A stretch of DNA of 24,447 bases, taken from a virus. The position numbers and the translations under genes were made by a program. The stretch spans positions 1 to 24,447 of IMG/VR virus record IMGVR_UViG_3300010885_030499; one strand, written 5' to 3'. Positions 738 through 24,255 of this stretch are shown here, piece by piece. The notes under the pieces were generated by a model, which did not search any database, had not been told where the DNA came from, and saw only the letters and a program-made list of their open reading frames with translations. The first letter of the stretch is position 1; each line of letters opens with the position of its first letter.

Positions 738-1247
738 ATGATAGACAAAATTATATCCTTTGACTTCGATGGTACATTAATAATGACACCAACGCCAGAA
801 ATAGGTGAGCCACAATGGGAAAAAGCCACAGGGTTATCCTTTCAAGGAAGAGGATGGTGGGGAAATCCAGAGTCATTAAATACTAAAGTATTTTATCCAC
901 CAGTAAACGGATGGGTGTACAAGTTTTTTGATAAATATATCAATGATAAAACAGCATATACATTTATAGCAACTGGTAGACTTGCGAGATTAGAAACTCA
1001 GGTTAAAAAGGTTTTAAGATTGCATGATATAGATTGTGATGTTTATTGTAATACTGGCGGTGAAACATTCAATTTTAAATGTCGTTTATTCGAGAGACTT
1101 ATGAGAGAGAATCCAACAGCAAAAGAACTCATCATGTTTGATGACCGGGAATCACACCTGATACAGTTTGAAGTTTGGGCCAAGAAACAATCTATAAAAG
1201 TAACTATTATCGATGTTATTCGCAAGACAACCAAAATAATTAATTAG
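738..1247 (+). CDS. HAD-superfamily phosphatase-like protein, Swiss-Army-Knife RNA-repair type
   Basis: This 169-aa protein has all four HAD motifs: DFDGT with the nucleophile D9 and acid D11, T79 in IATGR (motif II), K114 (motif III) and FDDRE with D135/D136 (motif IV). The insertion just after motif I, with TPTP at 17-20, GRGWWGNP at 37-44 and GWVYKFF at 58-64, matches what I recall of the HAD domain found in Swiss-Army-Knife RNA repair proteins (HAD_SAK_1). Such domains are thought to act on phosphorylated nucleic-acid ends, so a 3'-phosphatase or tRNA-repair role is plausible, comparable in idea to T4 PseT. The family call comes from memory and the substrate is inference. It is the first gene of the plus-strand cluster and is expressed from a host-type promoter, which suggests early function. 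Confidence 0.85.
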   Translation: MIDKIISFDFDGTLIMTPTPEIGEPQWEKATGLSFQGRGWWGNPESLNTKVFYPPVNGWVYKFFDKYINDKTAYTFIATGRLARLETQVKKVLRLHDIDCDVYCNTGGETFNFKCRLFERLMRENPTAKELIMFDDRESHLIQFEVWAKKQSIKVTIIDVIRKTTKIIN

Positions 1248-1294: not shown

Positions 1295-1942
1295 ATGTCT
1301 GATGATGAAAGAAAGGAAAAGAAAAGATTGTATGATAAGGAGTATAGAAAGAAAAATAAAGAAAAGTTAAATAAGCTAAAGAGAAGGTGGGCTATTGAAA
1401 ATCCCGATAGAGTTAAAGAGAGTAGATTGAAAGGTATAGATGCTAAAAAAGTAACTGACCGGAAATATGCTACTGAAAATGTTGAGAAGTTAAATGAGAT
1501 AAAAAGGAAATGGGCTAAAAATAATCCAGATAAAGTAAAAGCATCAAGTCTGAAATACCATAAGAGTAAAATGTCAAATGATAAACTTTATAGGCTTAAA
1601 CATATAATAAGTAATATTATTAGAGATGCAATAAAAAGAAAAGGATATTCGAAGAGGTATAAAAGTGCTGATATATTAGGATGCACTATAAGTGAGTTTA
1701 AGATATATCTAGAGTCTAAATTTGAGGACTGGATGACATGGGAAAATTATGGAAATCCATTAGACGGTATTTATGAAGTAAATAAGACTTGGGATATTGA
1801 TCATATCATACCACTAAATAACGCACTAACAGAGGAGGATATTATTAAGTTAAGTAACTATACAAATTTACAACCATTGTGTAGCTATTACAATAGATTT
1901 ATTAAAAAAGATAGAATTTGTATAGATGAAAAAGACAATTAA
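1295..1942 (+). CDS. HNH endonuclease, probably a free-standing homing endonuclease
   Basis: The C-terminal third of this 215-aa protein is an HNH nuclease fold: WDIDHIIPL with D169-H170, N191 in the NLQPLC segment and N200 in the last helix (the HNN variant). The DNA-binding N-terminus has two degenerate lysine-rich repeats at about residues 12-45 and 56-85, each with KLN(K/E)(L/I)KR(R/K)WA followed by (E/N)NPD(R/K)VK. Such repeats are common in phage HNH proteins. It lies between a HAD gene and ClpS with no visible interrupted gene or intron, so it looks like a free-standing mobile endonuclease. It overlaps the next gene by 17 nt in another frame. It could instead act as a nicking enzyme in DNA metabolism or packaging, but the repeats favour the mobile type. 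Confidence 0.88.
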   Translation: MSDDERKEKKRLYDKEYRKKNKEKLNKLKRRWAIENPDRVKESRLKGIDAKKVTDRKYATENVEKLNEIKRKWAKNNPDKVKASSLKYHKSKMSNDKLYRLKHIISNIIRDAIKRKGYSKRYKSADILGCTISEFKIYLESKFEDWMTWENYGNPLDGIYEVNKTWDIDHIIPLNNALTEEDIIKLSNYTNLQPLCSYYNRFIKKDRICIDEKDN

Positions 1943-2129
1943 GGCTAGCATAAAAATAAATGAAGATAACTCAATTAATTTATCTCTGATATGTAGAGAG
2001 TGTGGATCAACAATTGAAATCAACAATGAATCATTAGTATGTGAGAGCGATTGTCAACATGATAGTACACCTATTAGCGAAATTATAAACATATTCGATA
2101 AATCAAGAATCACTGAAAATAATATATAG
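1926..2129 (+). CDS. Small predicted zinc-binding protein
   Basis: This 67-aa protein of no family I recognise has four cysteines spaced like a zinc ribbon: C23-x2-C26 (CREC) and C39-x3-C43 (CESDC), followed by H45. The start ATG lies inside the end of the HNH gene (17-nt overlap), and the stop comes three bases before the ClpS start. It therefore sits in a tight plus-strand run HNH, zinc protein, ClpS. Small phage zinc-ribbon proteins often bind nucleic acid or host proteins, but nothing here points to a target. Confidence 0.65.
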   Translation: MKKTIKASIKINEDNSINLSLICRECGSTIEINNESLVCESDCQHDSTPISEIINIFDKSRITENNI

Positions 2130-2132
2130 AAA

Positions 2133-2414
2133 ATGGCAACAATTACTAAAGAACAAACATCAACGAAATTAAAAGAATTATTAAGTGAACCATATATTCT
2201 ATGGCTACATAACGATGACTATAATTCATTTGATTGGGTTATTCAATGTCTAATGAAAATATGCGGACATGAGCAAAGTCAGGCGGAGCAATGCGCACAT
2301 CTCGTTCACTTTACAGGTAAATGTGATGTGAAGAGAGGGGATAAGGAGAAAATTACAGAAATGTATAATAAACTAAAAGCCGCCAGACTAACAGTAACTA
2401 TGGATGTTGCTTAA
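2133..2414 (+). CDS. clpS: ClpS-like N-degron adaptor for the Clp protease
   Basis: This 93-aa protein is close to the usual ClpS length and aligns along its whole core. LHNDDYNSFDWVIQCLMKIC (residues 25-44) carries the N-degron pocket residues N27 and D28, and H59 (LVHFTGKC) corresponds to the pocket histidine H66 of E. coli ClpS. The EQAEQCAHLVH-type helix and the GKCDVK turn resemble cellular Bacteroidota ClpS. The position of the E. coli gatekeeper M40 is F33 here. ClpS docks on the ClpA/ClpC N-domain and delivers proteins with destabilising N-termini. A phage copy could redirect the host N-end rule, or bind and protect substrates. It ends 2 nt before a bidirectional terminator. The upstream sequence AATAATATATAG may be a weak late promoter. 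Family assignment is firm; the purpose is inference. Confidence 0.9.
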   Translation: MATITKEQTSTKLKELLSEPYILWLHNDDYNSFDWVIQCLMKICGHEQSQAEQCAHLVHFTGKCDVKRGDKEKITEMYNKLKAARLTVTMDVA

Positions 2415-2897: not shown

Positions 2898-2913
2898 AAC
2901 TATATATTAAATT
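2898..2913 (-). promoter_or_regulatory. Late-promoter-like motif for the gene at 2447-2896
   Basis: On the minus strand this reads AATTTAATATATAGTT and is followed at once by the ATG at 2896. It overlaps the stop codon of the terminase gene upstream. Confidence 0.5.
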
Positions 2914-5048
2914 CCAAACCATGTATTTCCGTAGCTATTATTCTTATATTGACTCATAAATTTTCTTTGTCTATTTATATTAATAATGGAAGAGTAATCA
3001 GCAGCCTCTCTATAATCAATTGACTTCAAAATAGAATTAAAGTAATTTAATTTGTCTTTAGGAATATAACTATTCGCATAATCTTCAACCATCTCTCGAT
3101 AATCATTCTTAGCAAATACACTTGAGGCATCAACCAGTGTCATCGTTGTATCATCATTACCAATATCTGCCGCATATCTTACATTACCTGCCGTAGTTAT
3201 ATGTTTAACAAACGTTGTTATCTCTCGAATATTATCCTCATTATTAATGATAAAGTTTTTCTTATCCATTGCTTCCTGATATTCCTTTACTAATAAGTTT
3301 TTGTTATCATTTACCTTTAATCCCAATTTTTCCTCAATCGCATCAGATCTATGCTTATACTTAAAGAATATACTGGATCCATAATTGTTGTTACCATCAA
3401 ATATATTAGGTAGATGAGCAAGAAACTCATTACCATAACTATTAATTTCTAAAACCGCCTTAAAGTTATCAAAATTAAAATACTCAAACATCAATAGATA
3501 GAATATTTCAGCCAATTGCTTAACCGATACCAAGTTTGATCTAAACATACCTATTTGTGTTAGACAGAAGAAATCACTCATATGTGTATAGGTATGCTTC
3601 TGTGATTCAATAACATCATCAGGCTTCTTACCTAACCTAAATATATTAATAACCGAGAAATCTTGCCCCAATCCTTCTGATATATCGATTGATACAATTC
3701 CCTTTATTGAATTTCTTTGTATAGGCATAAATAGCTCATCATCATCAACCCATTTTAAATCTGAATAAGAGAACTTTAATTTTCTATCAAATTCATATAT
3801 CTGTTCAAATTTATAAGGTTTTTTATTTTTCAGCAGATTCTCAATAATACTCTCGTTTAAAAGTGATCTACTTGAGTTTATGAAACGCAATTCATACTCT
3901 TGGTTAAAGGCATCTTCACCACCAATGTTTCTAACCGCATCCTCTTTCCAAGTTGTTGTTTCTGAAACCGCTTGTATTGGTACCTCTAATCCTTCTTTAT
4001 CTATAAACTGAAATGATTTAGATAATACCTCTGTACAGACATCATTATTATAAACTAATATAACATCCTTTTCAAGATCACTATACCATTTCATTTCCAA
4101 CTTTGTCAATCCCCCAAATGTTTCTTTAACTTGCTCAAATATTTCCTCTTTTGTCATATTATAAGCATGTAGCTTATTAGCATATAATCTATAATAAGTA
4201 ACAAATCTACCTTCAACTTGATACCAATATACTCTCATCGCTTTAAAGTTATTCTTTAAAACATCACCATCAACCCTTTCCGCATCAGTAAGTAGCTTAT
4301 GGAATAAGTTCATACCATTTGGTGTTGATGTTATTATTATTTTAGAGTTCTCAACCGCCGAAACAACCGGATAAACAGCCGTGTAGTACGGCTCAATTAT
4401 ATTAGAAGGGATATGTGCAAACTCATCCAGATATAAAAAGTCAATAGTAAAACCAATTGCTGGTGTTTTACTTCTAGCAGCAGATTTAATTCTACATCCA
4501 TTCTCAAATATCATTGTTCTTTGACTCCAGTTCTTAATACCTGCTTTTAAAAAGAAAGGTAGATTAACATATATTGATTTAATCTTATCTATGATCTCAA
4601 TTGTTGTACCAGCTACGTTAGCAACAATCATAATATTTTTATCATTATTAAATGTGATAAAGTGTAGCATGGTAATCGCAGCATTAACTGTTTTACCTGC
4701 TTGCCTACTAGCACATAATATACTAAACCTATTCTTTGTATATAAATCTAATATATCTTTCTGATAGTCACGTAATCTGATATTACCAATGCTACCATCT
4801 TCTCTCTTTACTTTACAGTATTTCTCAGCAAAATAATGTATATCTAATTTACATCTAATATATTCTTGAATTTCATCTTCTGATAATGCGAATGTTATAC
4901 CACTTCTCCTAACACCGACTTCATTTTTAAACCACGGGTTCTGATAACGTTTGATTATATATCCATCCGATATTTGTTGTGTTATATCCACAATATTCTT
5001 ACTTGTGAATATAAATTTCTTCTCTGATTCTTTTTTAGCAACTGCCAT
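2907..5048 (-). CDS. terL: Terminase large subunit (T4 gp17-like)
   Basis: This 713-aa protein is the DNA-packaging motor ATPase and headful nuclease. The ATPase domain shows RDYQKDIL (93-100), Walker A SRQAGKT (114-120), Walker B FLYLDE (204-209) and the coupling motif STPNG (241-245). The C-terminal RNase-H-like nuclease shows its acidic residues in IVSIDISEG, AVLEINSYG and DDTTMTLVDASS, matching the D/E/D triad of gp17. T4 gp17 is 610 aa, so this one is about 100 aa longer, with an extended region between the domains. It would dock on the portal and pump DNA into the prohead. It lies on the minus strand, opposite sheath and tube, whereas T4 genes 16 to 19 are codirectional. The 55-nt gap to the divergent gene holds an AT motif usable on both strands. 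Confidence 0.95.
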   Translation of the reverse strand: MAVAKKESEKKFIFTSKNIVDITQQISDGYIIKRYQNPWFKNEVGVRRSGITFALSEDEIQEYIRCKLDIHYFAEKYCKVKREDGSIGNIRLRDYQKDILDLYTKNRFSILCASRQAGKTVNAAITMLHFITFNNDKNIMIVANVAGTTIEIIDKIKSIYVNLPFFLKAGIKNWSQRTMIFENGCRIKSAARSKTPAIGFTIDFLYLDEFAHIPSNIIEPYYTAVYPVVSAVENSKIIITSTPNGMNLFHKLLTDAERVDGDVLKNNFKAMRVYWYQVEGRFVTYYRLYANKLHAYNMTKEEIFEQVKETFGGLTKLEMKWYSDLEKDVILVYNNDVCTEVLSKSFQFIDKEGLEVPIQAVSETTTWKEDAVRNIGGEDAFNQEYELRFINSSRSLLNESIIENLLKNKKPYKFEQIYEFDRKLKFSYSDLKWVDDDELFMPIQRNSIKGIVSIDISEGLGQDFSVINIFRLGKKPDDVIESQKHTYTHMSDFFCLTQIGMFRSNLVSVKQLAEIFYLLMFEYFNFDNFKAVLEINSYGNEFLAHLPNIFDGNNNYGSSIFFKYKHRSDAIEEKLGLKVNDNKNLLVKEYQEAMDKKNFIINNEDNIREITTFVKHITTAGNVRYAADIGNDDTTMTLVDASSVFAKNDYREMVEDYANSYIPKDKLNYFNSILKSIDYREAADYSSIININRQRKFMSQYKNNSYGNTWFGI

Positions 5049-8020: not shown

Positions 8021-8491
8021 TTAGATCTTACCAATTTTAAAGTTAGGGTTAATAGATTTTCCAGAATTTGTGCTTCTTGACCACCACTTTATTAAATGTT
8101 CAACTGCCAATAATGTATATTCAAAATCTAAAGACCCTTTAGAATAGGGCTTCTCTTTTTGTTTATCAAACTGAGTATCAGTTAATATAGGTTTATTATT
8201 AGTATTTTCTTTTTCACTAGCATAGAAATATATTGTTAGTCTAAATTTATTACTACCAACTACTTTTAATTCTGCTATGATTCTATCCTCATGAATAAAC
8301 TTGTATTCAGTATCAGATATCTTCTTAGCAGAGATATTATATTTACCCAATTCTTTAGCCTCTTTAGTTCCAGTAAGTGATGAGAAAGCTCCTTTAACAC
8401 TATTTGAAACACTCTTAATACTATTTGATAATGATGTTATAATCCCTTCATTAAACTCATTAAAACTTTTTAACTTCATATTATTATCCAT
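8021..8491 (-). CDS. Putative capsid-targeted late protein, 156 aa
   Basis: The frame opens MDNN and then MKLKSFNEFNE|G, which is the shared capsid-targeting-like signature if translation begins at the internal ATG at 8479. The start at 8491 adds four residues and lies 6 nt from the late motif, so both starts are possible. After the signal comes an amphipathic S/N-rich helix (IITSLSNSIKSVSNSVKGAF) and then a beta-rich domain (YNISAKKISDTEYKF..., KFRLTIYFYA) that ends near GKI. No catalytic motif is visible. It would be a head-internal protein if the signal is functional. Confidence 0.8.
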   Translation of the reverse strand: MDNNMKLKSFNEFNEGIITSLSNSIKSVSNSVKGAFSSLTGTKEAKELGKYNISAKKISDTEYKFIHEDRIIAELKVVGSNKFRLTIYFYASEKENTNNKPILTDTQFDKQKEKPYSKGSLDFEYTLLAVEHLIKWWSRSTNSGKSINPNFKIGKI

Positions 8492-8559: not shown

Positions 8560-8910
8560 ATGAAAAAAATTACAACATTTAAACTATTTGAAAGTTTATC
8601 AGAACCTTCCTACGAAGAAAGAGCAAAATTTAGGTTGGCAATTAGAGAAGATAGAGAAGATGATGCAATAGATATGATTAAAAAAAATCCCGAGTTTGCA
8701 CATTATAGAAGACAAATATTTGTGAAGACAGCAGCCGAGTTTGGAAAAGTAAAATTACTTAAATATATGCTTGATAATTGTGATGTTAATATTCCAGAAA
8801 TTAAGAATTGGATGAGCCCTACGATATTTCATGTTGATGGTGAATACAGCGGCGCAACTCTAACAGAGGAAGAATATGAAAAAGTTCTTGATTTATTAGC
8901 TAAATACTAA
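8560..8910 (+). CDS. Putative capsid-targeted ankyrin-like protein
   Basis: This 116-aa protein begins MKKITTFKLFE|S, the capsid-targeting-like signature. Residues 24-72 (FRLAIREDREDDAIDMIKKN ... KLLKYMLD) look like a pair of ankyrin-type helical repeats, and LTEEEYEKVLDLLA closes the protein. The same block, with the matching pieces DNPDI..CRR, LKYLLS and LTEKEIDEIISFIS, occurs at residues 95-168 of the zinc peptidase at 17279. The two therefore share a domain, although here it stands alone. Ankyrin repeats bind proteins, so it may be an adaptor or host-interaction module carried in the head; that is inference. Confidence 0.8.
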   Translation: MKKITTFKLFESLSEPSYEERAKFRLAIREDREDDAIDMIKKNPEFAHYRRQIFVKTAAEFGKVKLLKYMLDNCDVNIPEIKNWMSPTIFHVDGEYSGATLTEEEYEKVLDLLAKY

Positions 8911-17278: not shown

Positions 17279-19135
17279 ATGAAACACGTAAACAATTGGG
17301 AAATTTTTAACGAAGATGTGGATAATAAATCTCCAAAAAGTCACGTTGGCTTTTTAGAGGAAGTAATAAATACACTGTCCAAAATTCACTCAAATATCAT
17401 TCAATTTGGATCAGCATCCAAAGATCAACAACTATTTATAGAGGACCTTAACAAACTAGTATCCAAGTATGGTACAAAAAATTTGGGAAAGGTTAATGAG
17501 TCACTTAGTGATACAGAGCATCATAAATACTATGACTGGGATAAAAAAAATCAAGATTTAGCAATTGAGTTTAGAAGATCAGTAAAGGATAATAATATTA
17601 CTAAGACCCGTCAAATAGTTAAAGATAACCCAGACATTATCTACTGTAGAAGAAATCATGCGTTTAAACAAGCTGTTGAGAACGAGTCTAGTGACATGTT
17701 AAAGTATCTATTATCAGTTGATAAAGAACTTGGTGGTAATTTAACCGAAAAAGAAATTGATGAAATCATATCTTTCATTTCAGTTCGAAAAGACAATTCA
17801 AGAACTGAGTTATCTAACATAATAGATAATTATAAGAAATTAATGATAAACGAAGGCAAATCATCAAGAGTTAAAGCTAGATCAACTGATCCTTTCAAGC
17901 AGACTTTTCTTAACTTAACCGAATATACTATTCCATACGGAAATGAAACTGATTTGGAAAAGTATCTACCAAGTGGGTATAAAAAAGACTCAATTGGTAA
18001 CTACTATATCGAAGTAGGAAAATCAGAAACATTATTCACTACACACTTAGATACATATTGTGAAAAGAAAGAGAAGGTTAAGCACGTAATATCCGGTGAT
18101 ATTATCAAAACCGATGGTACAACTATATTAGGGGGTGATAATAAATTGGGTATGACTATACTTCTTTACATGATTGAAAAAGGAGTACCTGGTACTTATT
18201 TTTTCTTCTTAGGGGAAGAACCAATATTAAGTGGTGGTTTGTGGGGATCGCAGAATACACTTAAAAGTAATCCTGATTTCTTCAAGAAGTTTAAAAGAGC
18301 AGTTGCCTTTGATAGAAAAGAAAAGGGTTCTGTTGTAAGAAGACAAAAGGGAAGATACTGTTGCTCAGAAGAATTTGCTGAGGCATTAAGTAATGAACTA
18401 ACAAACTTAGGAGTAGATTCCGCACCAGATCCTAATGCTTATTATACCGATACCGCGACATTCTTAGATATAATTCCTGAATGTACTAATATAAGTGCTG
18501 GTGGGTGGAAAGAACACTTTAAAGAAGAGTGGGTTGATTTAGGTTACACAAAACAAGTTGCAGAGGCGGCTTGTAAAGTCGATTGGGAAAATCTTCCAAC
18601 TGAAAGAAAGGTTAACTACTTTCAACCAAAGTATAAAGTTGAACCAAGACACAGATTTGTTAATAGAGAAGTTATTAAGGGTGTTAAAGAAGTATTGAAT
18701 AGATATGATCTACTACACACCAATAACTTAGAATTTGATACTTATAATACAGATACATTAGTATTTAATACCTGGTTCGAAGAAAAGAACATTAAAGTAA
18801 CAATACTAGATGATATTTTACTTCAAATAGAAGGTTATGATGACGTTAAATTTGGATTGAATGAACTTAAAAAGCTAAATCTATATTTAGGCAATATATT
18901 TGGAGTGGATATAAATCCGAATGATTATAAAATGTTATCTTATAAAGATGGTAGAGTAAGTATCTTAGGTAGTGTATTTAATGATATAGATGAATATCTT
19001 GAGCATTTTGATAAAATAAACTCCGATGACACATCATTTGTAATTAAGAAGGGTGGTGATCAGTATAAAGAATACTATGGTAGTGTGGTCCCAAAAGAAC
19101 TTGTTCTAAAATGGTTTCATGATAATATAGCATAA
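17279..19135 (+). CDS. Putative capsid-targeted M20/M28/M42-type zinc peptidase with an ankyrin-like domain
   Basis: This 618-aa protein has three parts. The N-terminus MKHVNNWEIFNE|D is the capsid-targeting-like signature. Residues about 95-168 repeat the ankyrin-like block of the gene at 8560. From about 205 on there is a dinuclear zinc peptidase core: THLDT with H256 and D258, GGDNKLG with D287, GEEP with E313/E314, AFDRK with D345 and KEHF with H413. This is the H-x-D, D, E-E, D, H ligand order of M20/M28/M42 enzymes. The last 150 residues are not recognised. It follows the sheath gene as a single-gene late unit. Family-level enzyme type is likely; substrate and virion location are inference. 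It differs from T4 gp21, which is a serine protease. Confidence 0.88.
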   Translation: MKHVNNWEIFNEDVDNKSPKSHVGFLEEVINTLSKIHSNIIQFGSASKDQQLFIEDLNKLVSKYGTKNLGKVNESLSDTEHHKYYDWDKKNQDLAIEFRRSVKDNNITKTRQIVKDNPDIIYCRRNHAFKQAVENESSDMLKYLLSVDKELGGNLTEKEIDEIISFISVRKDNSRTELSNIIDNYKKLMINEGKSSRVKARSTDPFKQTFLNLTEYTIPYGNETDLEKYLPSGYKKDSIGNYYIEVGKSETLFTTHLDTYCEKKEKVKHVISGDIIKTDGTTILGGDNKLGMTILLYMIEKGVPGTYFFFLGEEPILSGGLWGSQNTLKSNPDFFKKFKRAVAFDRKEKGSVVRRQKGRYCCSEEFAEALSNELTNLGVDSAPDPNAYYTDTATFLDIIPECTNISAGGWKEHFKEEWVDLGYTKQVAEAACKVDWENLPTERKVNYFQPKYKVEPRHRFVNREVIKGVKEVLNRYDLLHTNNLEFDTYNTDTLVFNTWFEEKNIKVTILDDILLQIEGYDDVKFGLNELKKLNLYLGNIFGVDINPNDYKMLSYKDGRVSILGSVFNDIDEYLEHFDKINSDDTSFVIKKGGDQYKEYYGSVVPKELVLKWFHDNIA

Positions 19136-19192: not shown

Positions 19193-20359
19193 ATGAAGTA
19201 TATGAAAATATTTGAGGCGTATAATGATTTCTATCAAGAGATAAGTAATGGTGAATATAATAGGCTACGTGCAACTGACTTTGATGATAGGTATATAGAT
19301 GATATAAGTAAAGCACTTGGTGCTAATTTTATAGTTGAGTCATCAGGTCAGTCAAACACATTTTATTCACATTGTATAATAAGAAGCAACAAAAGTAAGA
19401 TAAAAAAAGTAAGCATACAAGTGTATCAACTATATGATGAATACTTTAAAGTAAAATCAAATTCAGTTATTATCGGTGGTGTCATGATAGATAGATGGTT
19501 CAAATGTGATCAAATTGATGGTCTAATAGAATGTCTTACTAACCTAACAACCTATAACCGAAAGAAATCTAAAAGCATAACTGAGAAAAGAGGTATACTA
19601 ACAGAGTTAGAATATATAGCCGATGATATAATTGAGAAAATGATTGGTAAGTCGAGCATACGATATAAATTTAACTTTAAAGATAGTAATATAGATGTAA
19701 AAATAAAGATAGACCCTACAAATAAAGATATAGGTACTATGAGAAATGGCATTATATCAAATTCGATAATATTATCCAGTTTAGACAAAAGTGTTTTAAT
19801 ACATGAGTTGAAGCACCTATTATATATTAATCAAAATCCAAACAGTAGTGGGTTCAAAAACTCAATAAGCAGATCGTTTAATTGGATAGAAAGCAAATAC
19901 GGAAAAGAATTTAATGAAGGTCATAAGGAAATAATAACAGCACTCTTCTACCTAATCGAACCTGATGAGTTTGAAGCTCAATACAATGGGTTATATCATA
20001 TGATAAAGAGTCAAGTAGAAAAGGACCCAAGTAACAAAAAGGAGATAGTAGATCGACTAATTAAACAGGATGATCTATATAAATTATATACATCGTTTAT
20101 CAAGTGGGACTTTGATATTAGAAATTGGTTTAAAGATGAAAAGTATGTAAAGCCTTTTTTTAATGACTTATACCACACTATTAATATTTTGAAGAAATCT
20201 ACCATCAAAGCAACAATTTTACTAAGCATAGATTATTATTTTAGTTTCAAGAGAAAGAACATAAATACAGAAAAGGCAGTGAAGAATTTTAACCGATTAG
20301 TAAATACACAAGTTCACAAGAACTATAGAAAGTTAATGAGACTATATTCTCTATTTTAA
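19193..20359 (+). CDS. Putative capsid-targeted protein: CDQ-GL domain fused to an HExxH zincin-like domain
   Basis: This 388-aa protein begins MKYMKIFE|A, the capsid-targeting-like signature, followed by FYQEISNGEY (13-22). The first 120 residues end in YDEYFKV (81-87) and WFKCDQIDGLIECL (102-115). They are paralogous to the proteins at 2447 and 21180. The rest is a separate domain with H204-E-L-K-H208, a zinc metalloprotease HExxH motif, followed by EPDEFEAQ (256-263), which could supply the third, glutamate ligand as in gluzincin-like peptidases. The C-terminus is basic and helical. It is a family member that gained a protease-like domain. Activity is predicted from motifs only. Confidence 0.85.
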   Translation: MKYMKIFEAYNDFYQEISNGEYNRLRATDFDDRYIDDISKALGANFIVESSGQSNTFYSHCIIRSNKSKIKKVSIQVYQLYDEYFKVKSNSVIIGGVMIDRWFKCDQIDGLIECLTNLTTYNRKKSKSITEKRGILTELEYIADDIIEKMIGKSSIRYKFNFKDSNIDVKIKIDPTNKDIGTMRNGIISNSIILSSLDKSVLIHELKHLLYINQNPNSSGFKNSISRSFNWIESKYGKEFNEGHKEIITALFYLIEPDEFEAQYNGLYHMIKSQVEKDPSNKKEIVDRLIKQDDLYKLYTSFIKWDFDIRNWFKDEKYVKPFFNDLYHTINILKKSTIKATILLSIDYYFSFKRKNINTEKAVKNFNRLVNTQVHKNYRKLMRLYSLF

Positions 20360-21179: not shown

Positions 21180-21587
21180 TTAATATTCATCACTCTCATT
21201 AACACCAACTATGTAATCAATTGTATATTTAATAAACTTTAATAATCCCACAAACTGATCACACATATAGAATTTTACAGCAATATATTTTTCTGGTCGA
21301 CATGTCCATCTTACGAGATACCATTCATCCTTTAACTTAACTACTTGCATAGATGATGCACCCTTACCAACACCAGCTTTACCAAACTGTATTTCAACTA
21401 CTTCAGATATAGTCTGTGGTAATATGACAACTCCCTTAATTGCACGTATTTCTTTCAACTCATCTAAGGTAAAGTCAATACTATCGTCGCACCTATCAAT
21501 GTAATCATCACCAGATACTTCATTAAAGTACTGATTATAGTCTTCAAATATCTTGATATAATTCAAAACAGATTGTTTATTTTTCAT
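21180..21587 (-). CDS. Putative capsid-targeted late protein, CD(Q/S)-GL family
   Basis: This 135-aa protein starts MKNKQSVLNYIKIFE|D, an extended version of the shared signature, followed by YFNEVSGDDY (20-29). The domain that follows ends with DEWYLVRW (87-94) and FYMCDQFVGLLKF (106-118), the hallmark positions of the family also found at 2447 and 19193. No catalytic residues are obvious. It is transcribed divergently from the GIY-YIG endonuclease and has a near-perfect late motif. It is probably a head-internal or injected protein; the function of the domain is unknown. Confidence 0.85.
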   Translation of the reverse strand: MKNKQSVLNYIKIFEDYNQYFNEVSGDDYIDRCDDSIDFTLDELKEIRAIKGVVILPQTISEVVEIQFGKAGVGKGASSMQVVKLKDEWYLVRWTCRPEKYIAVKFYMCDQFVGLLKFIKYTIDYIVGVNESDEY

Positions 21588-21669: not shown

Positions 21670-22410
21670 ATGAATGATTACTATGTTTATATATTCCTGA
21701 ATTCACTAAAACCCGGACACTTCAAATATGCGGATGATTTAACTTTCACACATCAACCATTTTATGTCGGAAGAGGAATCAATAATAGAATTGAATGTAG
21801 CGAGAAATATGACAAGAATAATAAGATAAAAACATCAATAATAGATTATATACATAAGAATGATATGAATGTGATATCTCTAAAAATAAAAGAGTGTATG
21901 ACTTTAGAAGAATCTTACGATTATGAGATATATACGATAAATAAAATAGGTAGAATTATACATAAGAGTGGACCTCTATCTAATATAGAGGATGGTGGAA
22001 ACACATTTCAAAATAGAATAAGACCTGTTTTACAATATGATATAAAAGGTAATTTTATTAAGGAATATAAATCTATTGGTGAGGCGGTCGCCAGCACAAA
22101 TATTAAAAATATTAGTTATTGTTGCTCTGGTGTTAGAAATTTAGCAGGTAAATATATATGGCGCTATAAACAAAGCAGTGATTTCCCAACTATTATACCA
22201 GTGGACTTTCTAGATAGAATGGTGCACTATGGTAATTATGAAACTCCGGTGTTACAATTTGATATAAACAAAAACTTTATATGTAGATTTGAGTCAATTA
22301 AGGAGGCATCTGATAGCACCGGGTGCTCGAGTCCAAGAATAGTCGATGTATGTAAAGGTAACAGAAAGCATACCAAAAATTTTATTTGGATTTATGCAGA
22401 TAAAAAATAA
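21670..22410 (+). CDS. GIY-YIG homing endonuclease with NUMOD1-like repeats
   Basis: This 246-aa protein starts at ATG 21670. A TTG at 21661 is in frame but lies inside the right arm of the inverted repeat. The GIY-YIG nuclease domain occupies the first 95 residues or so: YYVYIFLNS (4-12), FYVGRG with NR (31-40) and a later Glu-rich helix (EESYDYEIYTINKIG). Two NUMOD1-like DNA-binding repeats follow, each with VLQ(Y/F)DI..NFI.....SI.EA and ending with (Y/F)IW.Y (about 115-160 and 195-246). It sits 6 nt upstream of the gp47 gene, a typical location for a free-standing mobile endonuclease next to a conserved phage gene. The promoter and hairpin arrangement suggests delayed expression. Confidence 0.92.
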   Translation: MNDYYVYIFLNSLKPGHFKYADDLTFTHQPFYVGRGINNRIECSEKYDKNNKIKTSIIDYIHKNDMNVISLKIKECMTLEESYDYEIYTINKIGRIIHKSGPLSNIEDGGNTFQNRIRPVLQYDIKGNFIKEYKSIGEAVASTNIKNISYCCSGVRNLAGKYIWRYKQSSDFPTIIPVDFLDRMVHYGNYETPVLQFDINKNFICRFESIKEASDSTGCSSPRIVDVCKGNRKHTKNFIWIYADKK

Positions 22411-23553: not shown

Positions 23554-23732
23554 TGTTAGATTTGAGCAAACACCCTGAGTTAAGTGAGATACTTGATGAA
23601 CTAAGAGAACAGTGGCGTTATGAGTTTGATACTGAGTATAATAGAGATATGATGAATCATCAGATGCGTGAGATAGTTAATGACTATATAAAAAGATACA
23701 GAGATGGTAAAATTGATGAGATAATTAATTAG
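23553..23732 (+). CDS. Small hypothetical protein after gp47, 59 aa
   Basis: The ATG at 23553 shares its A with the stop codon of gp47 (TAATG), a typical coupled start. The product, MLDLSKHPELSEILDELREQ and onward, is highly charged and helical, with a MNHQMREIVNDYIKRYRDGK core and the end IDEIIN. I do not recognise it. Its reading frame and tight coupling make it a likely real gene. It may be an accessory subunit or regulator of gp47. Its end overlaps the convergent gene at 23725 by 8 nt, and I see no terminator between them. Confidence 0.7.
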   Translation: MLDLSKHPELSEILDELREQWRYEFDTEYNRDMMNHQMREIVNDYIKRYRDGKIDEIIN

Positions 23733-24255
23733 TCTCACCACCCTCCCAGTTAAACTCCAACTCTGGTATATAATCACCCATTGATAAATCAGAAATCATT
23801 TTATGATACTCATCATAGTTATATTTACCCCAGTCATTCTTTACAGTAATAAAAAAATCATAACTCGTCGTTGGTACAACACGACTACCTCTTCCACTAT
23901 AATCAAAAGAACCACACTCTTTACTAATTATAGAGAAACCTAGTGTCACATATGACCCATCCACGAAAGTTAACTTTAATTTAATTTCTGGCTTCCAATC
24001 TCTATATGCGGTTTTCAACCCAAAGAACTTATACCATTTATTTGCCCATTTTGAATTTAGAGTACCACCAATCCATTGGTTTGTTTCCCTAGCAGTATCA
24101 ATATATTCTCTTATGAATCCTTGTATATCATCAAACTCATCAACTGGTTTTAGTACTTTACCGTATTCAAAATACACATCTACGCTTTCTAACTCAGCAT
24201 ATAATATATCAAGTGCTGTATCACCAAATGACTCGAATAGTTTGATATATCGCAT
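23725..24255 (-). CDS. Putative capsid-targeted late protein, 176 aa
   Basis: It starts MRYIKLFE|S, a clear version of the shared capsid-targeting-like signature. The rest has an amphipathic helix (GDTALDILYAELESVDVYF), an aromatic stretch with WIGGTLNSKWANKWYKFFG (about 61-79) and a beta-rich end. It lacks the CD(Q/S)-GL element, so it is not a member of that paralog family. The start lies 2 nt after the stop of the next minus-strand gene, whose end contains AAATAAATACT. That sequence resembles the T4 late box and the local motif and may serve as promoter. Function unknown. Confidence 0.85.
   Translation of the reverse strand: MRYIKLFESFGDTALDILYAELESVDVYFEYGKVLKPVDEFDDIQGFIREYIDTARETNQWIGGTLNSKWANKWYKFFGLKTAYRDWKPEIKLKLTFVDGSYVTLGFSIISKECGSFDYSGRGSRVVPTTSYDFFITVKNDWGKYNYDEYHKMISDLSMGDYIPELEFNWEGGETN

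Follow-up and report, generated by a model that had tools for sequence, protein, structure and literature searches.

Among the systems closest to the one described here are the E. coli ClpS-ClpA-ClpP and the mycobacterial ClpS-ClpC1 machineries, whose adaptor, double-ring unfoldase and peptidase belong to the same families as the phage set. Canonical docking of ClpS takes place on the N-domain of ClpA, as described in sections of PMC9663308 and PMC12493166, and the former also reports, in the part available, that the N-terminal tail of E. coli ClpS docks in the ClpA channel. ClpS is known from jumbo phages as well, AMM43882.1 and gp708 of Agrobacterium phage Atu_ph07 being likewise phage-encoded. 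A proposal on such proteins comes from Iyer et al. (2021). There (PMC7824862, in the portion of the text available), a role for jumbo-phage ClpS together with host ClpAP was already put forward, and an excerpt of PMC6102473 reports ClpS, Clp ATPases and ClpP in Atu_ph07.

The window, meaning the whole stretch of DNA analyzed, is a virus fragment of 24,447 bases (IMG/VR record IMGVR_UViG_3300010885_030499). Its clpS gene occupies positions 2133 to 2414 of the plus strand as an intact ATG open reading frame of 93 codons encoding an N-degron adaptor of 93 amino acids. The single Pfam match of this frame is ClpS (PF02617; E = 4.3e-17, with 62.1 bits where the cut-off is 23), and a search of PHROGs gave a weaker match (3.4e-7) to a phage family that carries the annotation ATP-dependent protease. 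The NCBIfam ClpS equivalog cut-offs were missed (best 35.6 versus 117 bits), so the protein is divergent by that library and is filed under the broad PF02617. An AlphaFold2 model built from an alignment of 37 sequences (mean pLDDT 85.8) had as its top structural match 9ayo_A, a PheAla-bound ClpS of Mycolicibacterium (E = 1.6e-7, rmsd 0.8 Å, target TM 0.94); the next matches were ClpS from E. coli and Caulobacter, several of them with N-end peptides. Because the gene is present in hundreds of related viral contigs, a chance match is excluded, and the frame is a genuine ClpS.

Residues N27-D28 (2211–2216, plus strand) and H59 (2307–2309, plus strand), at the positions that contact the amino group of an N-degron, are the same in all 86 phage loci and all 80 host loci, and the gatekeeper position is taken by F33 (2229–2231, plus strand). 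These four residues align with N34, D35, H66 and M40, respectively, of E. coli ClpS. Met40 is the E. coli gatekeeper in the part of PMC12493166 available. The initial annotation had recognized a phage ClpS with an N27, D28 and H59 pocket, and it named the residues correctly; it had also suggested that F33 might shift specificity, which does not hold. ClpS is present in 195 of 198 Bacteroidota genomes taken as an even draw, so the host pathway exists. Among the best 30 ClpS loci of that draw, one of which (L218) did not align and was left out, 28 of the 29 alignable copies carry N, D, F and H at the four key positions, and the remaining one carries D, D, Y and D. The 80 host loci had been retrieved with two patterns, one of which included the gatekeeper Phe, and the draw is therefore the fairer test of this position. 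Phe is the Bacteroidota norm, and F33 was rejected as a phage-specific gatekeeper shift. Phage and host majority residues are the same at positions 25, 26, 27, 28, 31, 33, 36, 55, 58 and 59, the ten pocket positions that we mapped from the Caulobacter list given in a section of PMC12493166; the two groups differ near the C-terminal edge of the pocket, where position 88 is Val in phages and Ala in hosts. Judged from these residues, the specificity of phage ClpS would most simply be that of host ClpS. In our mapping, the E. coli docking residue Lys84 becomes Met77 in the window protein, as in most Bacteroidota copies, so the canonical ClpA docking interface is not transferable to it.

A profile scan of IMG/VR yielded 346 confirmed viral contigs with ClpS relatives, and the loci of the best 80 were inspected; a second contig among them (L104) bears a 100% identical ClpS. 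A protein search of an annotated phage collection with the window ClpS returned three records, all of huge uncultured phages, and recovered neither AMM43882.1 nor Atu_ph07 gp708. The terminase gene lies tail-to-tail with clpS in 79 of the 80 best viral loci, at a median gap of 24 bases, and the single exception is a locus that stops 302 bases past clpS. In the window, the large terminase subunit (2907–5048, minus strand; Pfam and PHROG terminase matches) shares 61–63% identity with its counterparts in LR756502 (642 kb) and LR745206 (635 kb) and 41% with the one in LR756504 (636 kb). The window clpS shows synteny across a large clade of huge phages, relatives of the complete 635 and 642 kb genomes. 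The available part of PMC7162821 assigns the largest huge-phage genomes to the Mahaphage clade and predicts Bacteroidetes as their hosts; together with the type of ClpS and ClpC, this leads us to predict a Bacteroidota host for the window phage.

Between the convergent clpS and orf149 lies a hairpin with a T-run on both strands (2417–2446; RNA fold z −6.3 on the plus and −5.8 on the minus strand, with 0 of 200 shuffles as stable), which is likely a two-way terminator. The consensus scan did not pick it up, and a consensus promoter scan gave no signal (12 found versus 15.3 expected). Upstream, the usual neighbor of clpS is a gene for a HAD-family protein (738–1247, plus strand; Pfam HAD_SAK_1, 5.2e-9), present in 60 of the 80 viral loci; 18 of the 20 loci lacking a HAD match have at least 600 bases upstream with no detectable match. 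An HNH-type endonuclease gene with weak HNH matches (1295–1942, plus strand) is inserted between the HAD gene and clpS, an arrangement found only in L104, L131 and L171 among the 80 loci. Beside it, a gene for a 67-amino-acid protein with two Cys pairs (1926–2129, plus strand), to which the matches assign no function, recurs among these loci only in the identical contig L104. None of 80 bacterial ClpS loci contains the other window genes.

The HNH gene is one of two mobile-type insertions in the window. The other (21670–22410) encodes a GIY-YIG endonuclease-like N-terminus followed by NUMOD1 domains and is likely a homing endonuclease. Many otherwise unrelated window proteins share a start resembling MKxxxxFExFNE, namely those at 8021–8491 (minus strand), 8560–8910, 17279–19135, 19193–20359 and 21180–21587 (minus strand), as well as at 2447–2896 and 23725–24255 (both minus strand). 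A crude version of this pattern fits 6 of the 26 window genes, against a mean of 0.85 in shuffles, none of 2000 reaching 6; the endonuclease at 21670–22410 is among the six fits, probably by chance. The shared start might serve as a leader that targets proteins to the virion and is cleaved by a head protease, a cleavage that would also create new N-termini. The initial annotation had further connected ClpS to new N-termini made by two predicted peptidases of the window. This special link found no support: one (17279–19135, 618 amino acids) matches PHROG 4191 'peptidase' in its middle (4e-55), and the other has a HELKH motif alone, with no Pfam or PHROG match.

To follow the gene through the phages, we compared 86 phage loci, that is, the best 80 of the 346 relatives plus L003, L004, L006, L009, L010 and L011. 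Because L003, L004 and L006 are the contigs of L105, L106 and L115 again, these amount to 83 contigs or records with 50 distinct cores. All 86 are full length (93–94 amino acids) and keep N27, D28, F33 and H59. Of 531 pairs, 28 had a dS between 0.05 and 1; over these, dN/dS had a median of 0.11 and a maximum of 0.46. Among close pairs, phage clpS is under purifying selection. The pocket loss and decay in related phages that the initial annotation had named as evidence against its reading were not found. That clpS is a passenger or decaying host gene, as its host ancestry in the ClpS tree might suggest, is refuted by the full-length loci, the kept pocket, the low dN/dS and the 346 confirmed relatives.

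Phage ClpS is up to 53% identical to Bacteroidota ClpS, the best match being the bacterial copy L024, and shares with it the PF02617 fold family, the pocket including the Phe gatekeeper and a conserved Cys. The ClpS tree (129 rows, 94 columns) is weakly resolved, with many forks left without resolution, and contains one row (L027), probably a bad translation, that has an odd composition and a branch of length 10. All but one of the 50 distinct phage rows fall in one clade (100/99), whose single bacterial row is L024. The clpS of L024 is flanked by genes that we named by eye as an ABC transporter and an acyl-CoA dehydrogenase-like gene, and on the strength of these flanks it is taken as chromosomal. 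The ClpS of LR756504 (L011) stands apart from the main phage clade and groups with a Bacteroidota row (99/96), which indicates at least two origins of phage ClpS; its gene lies about 27 kb from the terminase gene. By this tree, phages took clpS from hosts on at least two occasions, and the acquisition is old in the main clade, in line with the Bacteroidota-type host origin suggested in the initial annotation. A recent pick-up from a host was rejected for the main clade, given the 49 of 50 phage rows in one clade.

What sets the phage proteins apart from Bacteroidota ClpS, besides forming their own clade with L024, is the N-terminal extension (residues 1–19; 2133–2189, plus strand), which begins MATITK in the window and, across most of the phage clade, M[AS]TITK. 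The mean entropy of residues 1–6 was 0.61 bits over 49 distinct phage rows versus 3.16 over 78 host rows, a comparison in which the phage rows are more closely related than the host rows and the host value is partly an alignment effect of differing tail lengths. For the ClpS core, the mean was 0.79 in phages and 1.52 in hosts, and H56, D65, D70 and K80 are nearly fixed in phage ClpS and variable in hosts. In the AlphaFold2 model, the approximately 19 N-terminal residues have low pLDDT (55–65) and are drawn as a helix.

The three complete relatives, LR745206, LR756502 and LR756504, each encode one ClpC-type double-ring unfoldase; the numbers of ClpP homologs in the three are 2, 3 and 3, and LR756504 has a ClpX-like gene in addition; ClpC and ClpP are thus both encoded in 3/3. 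Among 20 partial ClpS-bearing records, ClpP was present in 10 and ClpC in 5, and neither was found in two further records (G001 and G002) or among the scanned proteins of the 24 kb window. By analogy with the complete genomes, we infer that the window phage itself would encode ClpC and ClpP. LR745206 ClpC retains both ATPase modules, the UVR middle domain and the VGF loop, which has a ClpP-docking role. Over the ATPase rings, it is 62–73% identical to the ClpC of all 12 of the ClpS-bearing host genomes compared. The UVR middle domain (Pfam UVR) is kept in LR745206, LR756502 and G005; in LR756504 ClpC the middle-domain motif is degenerate, with no UVR among the best 25 Pfam families listed.

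The ClpC N-domain is missing from these phage proteins. The start codon of LR745206 ClpC lies shortly upstream of the first ATPase domain, and the distance from the start to the first Walker A is 57–97 residues in short viral ClpC versus 171–249 in viral ClpC with an N-domain. Host ClpC matches Pfam Clp_N at 6.5e-29; for four phage ClpC proteins, Clp_N was not among the best 25 of the 36–38 Pfam families listed, and a genome search of 20 phage records detected it in none, with a threshold as loose as E ≤ 1. A profile of eight host N-domains likewise gave no match in any of the seven phage ClpC aligned, the domain being present in all eight host ClpC of the alignment. In total, the N-domain is absent in 11/11 records holding both ClpS and ClpC, a count that takes in G003 as well as G233, G235 and G244 (loci L262, L265 and L288). 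The relatives' ClpC is in this respect unlike E. coli ClpA, and the mycobacterial ClpC1 without N-domain is an engineered protein (PMC6274998, in the part available). The best 80 IMG/VR ClpC relatives divide into 34 with the N-domain, 44 without it and 2 whose frames are truncated by a contig end (L330 and L334, left out of the 46 scored as lacking it); the weak upstream N-domain matches at L280, L270, L268 and L272 reach E = 0.009 at best. The second set, which keeps the domain, comprises 34 loci between L298 and L340. By these loci, N-domain loss is not a general trait of phage ClpC. From the best 80 ClpC loci, 36 records were searched for ClpS: three of the 22 that have a short ClpC yielded one, and none of the 14 whose ClpC is full length did; a statistical association is not claimed because the contigs are fragments and related. 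The Aat transferase was detected in 0 of 8 phage records and 6 of 12 host genomes, and ATE_C in 0 of 8 and 0 of 12.

The 464 kb phage contig G003, which also bears ClpS, has its clpC in two pieces, separate genes lying about 48 kb from each other (L432:4688–6181 and L447:2081 down to 939, at contig positions of approximately 169,688–171,181 and 122,081–120,939). The first half, which was outside the best 80 matches of the N-terminal-half scan and was located on its contig, ends with GPTGVGK followed by CVTKDTS..., and the second opens with an intein-like stretch ending in SHN before TQLAK. This is apparently a split intein, recognized by eye, that sits within the second ATPase domain's Walker A motif.

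From its family, fold and constraint, we propose that phage ClpS is a working N-degron adaptor whose partner is most likely the full-length ClpC of the host, a reading we hold tentatively, at just short of an even chance. During infection, ClpS would bind proteins starting with a bulky hydrophobic residue and bring them to a ClpC-type unfoldase, from which ClpP would destroy them. Host ClpC is named as the partner because the phage ClpC lacks the N-domain, the usual dock of ClpS; it would act in host ClpCP or in mixed rings with phage ClpC, whose identity to host ClpC and VGF loop make such co-assembly conceivable. The retention of ClpS, ClpC and ClpP together in the phages speaks against host docking and suggests that the three may work with each other. 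ClpS would then feed an N-degron protease of the phage's own, handing substrates to N-domain-less phage ClpC and phage ClpP through a non-canonical contact made by the ClpC middle domain, by the ClpS tail inserted into the ClpC pore, or by both. All 11 records with both genes fit this arrangement, as do the UVR domain kept in LR745206, LR756502 and G005 and the unusually conserved tail, although common descent could account for the latter and the degenerate LR756504 motif, with no UVR among its best 25 families listed, does not fit. The known systems also cut both ways. In the portion of PMC6274998 available, mycobacterial ClpS still binds N-domain-deleted ClpC1 via the middle domain, a double mutation of which abolishes the binding, and the E. 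coli tail enters the ClpA channel (PMC9663308, excerpt); the same portion of PMC6274998, however, describes the middle-domain contact as weaker and inhibitory, does not show delivery through it, and reports an intact ClpA N-domain as necessary for ClpS control of ClpAP in E. coli. On balance, we regard a phage-own protease as possible but doubtful. A fully self-contained ClpS/ClpC/ClpP system, in which a new ClpS route via tail and middle domain would be insulated from host adaptors acting on the ClpC N-domain and would keep the N-end choice, we consider unlikely.

Phage ClpS could instead be mainly a blocker that occupies host ClpC N-domains and diverts host ClpCP away from phage proteins, other adaptors or C-terminal degrons. 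Such a blocker might leave the phage ClpC, having no N-domain, unaffected, and in other bacteria ClpS inhibits the proteolysis of SsrA-tagged substrates (PMC6274998 and PMC12493166, in the sections available). Yet a pure blocker would not need the N-degron pocket, whose residues are invariant in 86/86 loci, and the host already has a ClpS, which makes this reading quite improbable. We give very little credence to a new role in DNA packaging or another non-proteolytic process: the place of clpS tail-to-tail with the terminase gene in 79/80 loci invites the idea, but the two genes are convergent with a likely terminator between them and hence not co-transcribed, LR756504 carries its clpS about 27 kb from the terminase gene, and the N-degron pocket is intact. 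Docking on host full-length ClpC accordingly remains the reading we prefer.

Phage-encoded ClpS was known already; its pairing with an N-domain-less ClpC, the terminase synteny and the tail motif did not turn up in searches of open PMC papers, supplements excluded. The word 'Clp' does not occur in the main text of PMC8297831, and a supplement of PMC7162821 may hold an annotation. The initial annotation had mentioned none of the terminase synteny, the ClpP and N-domain-less ClpC of the relatives or the conserved phage tail. Jumbo phages are suspected of steering the host proteome through targeted degradation, but a selector has rarely been identified. A syntenic ClpS present across the clade, its pocket intact, together with a ClpC that lacks the standard dock, raises the sharp question of whose unfoldase is used and whether ClpS may dock without an N-domain. 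The phage ClpC proteins are natural N-domain-less proteins to compare with the engineered mycobacterial ClpC1.
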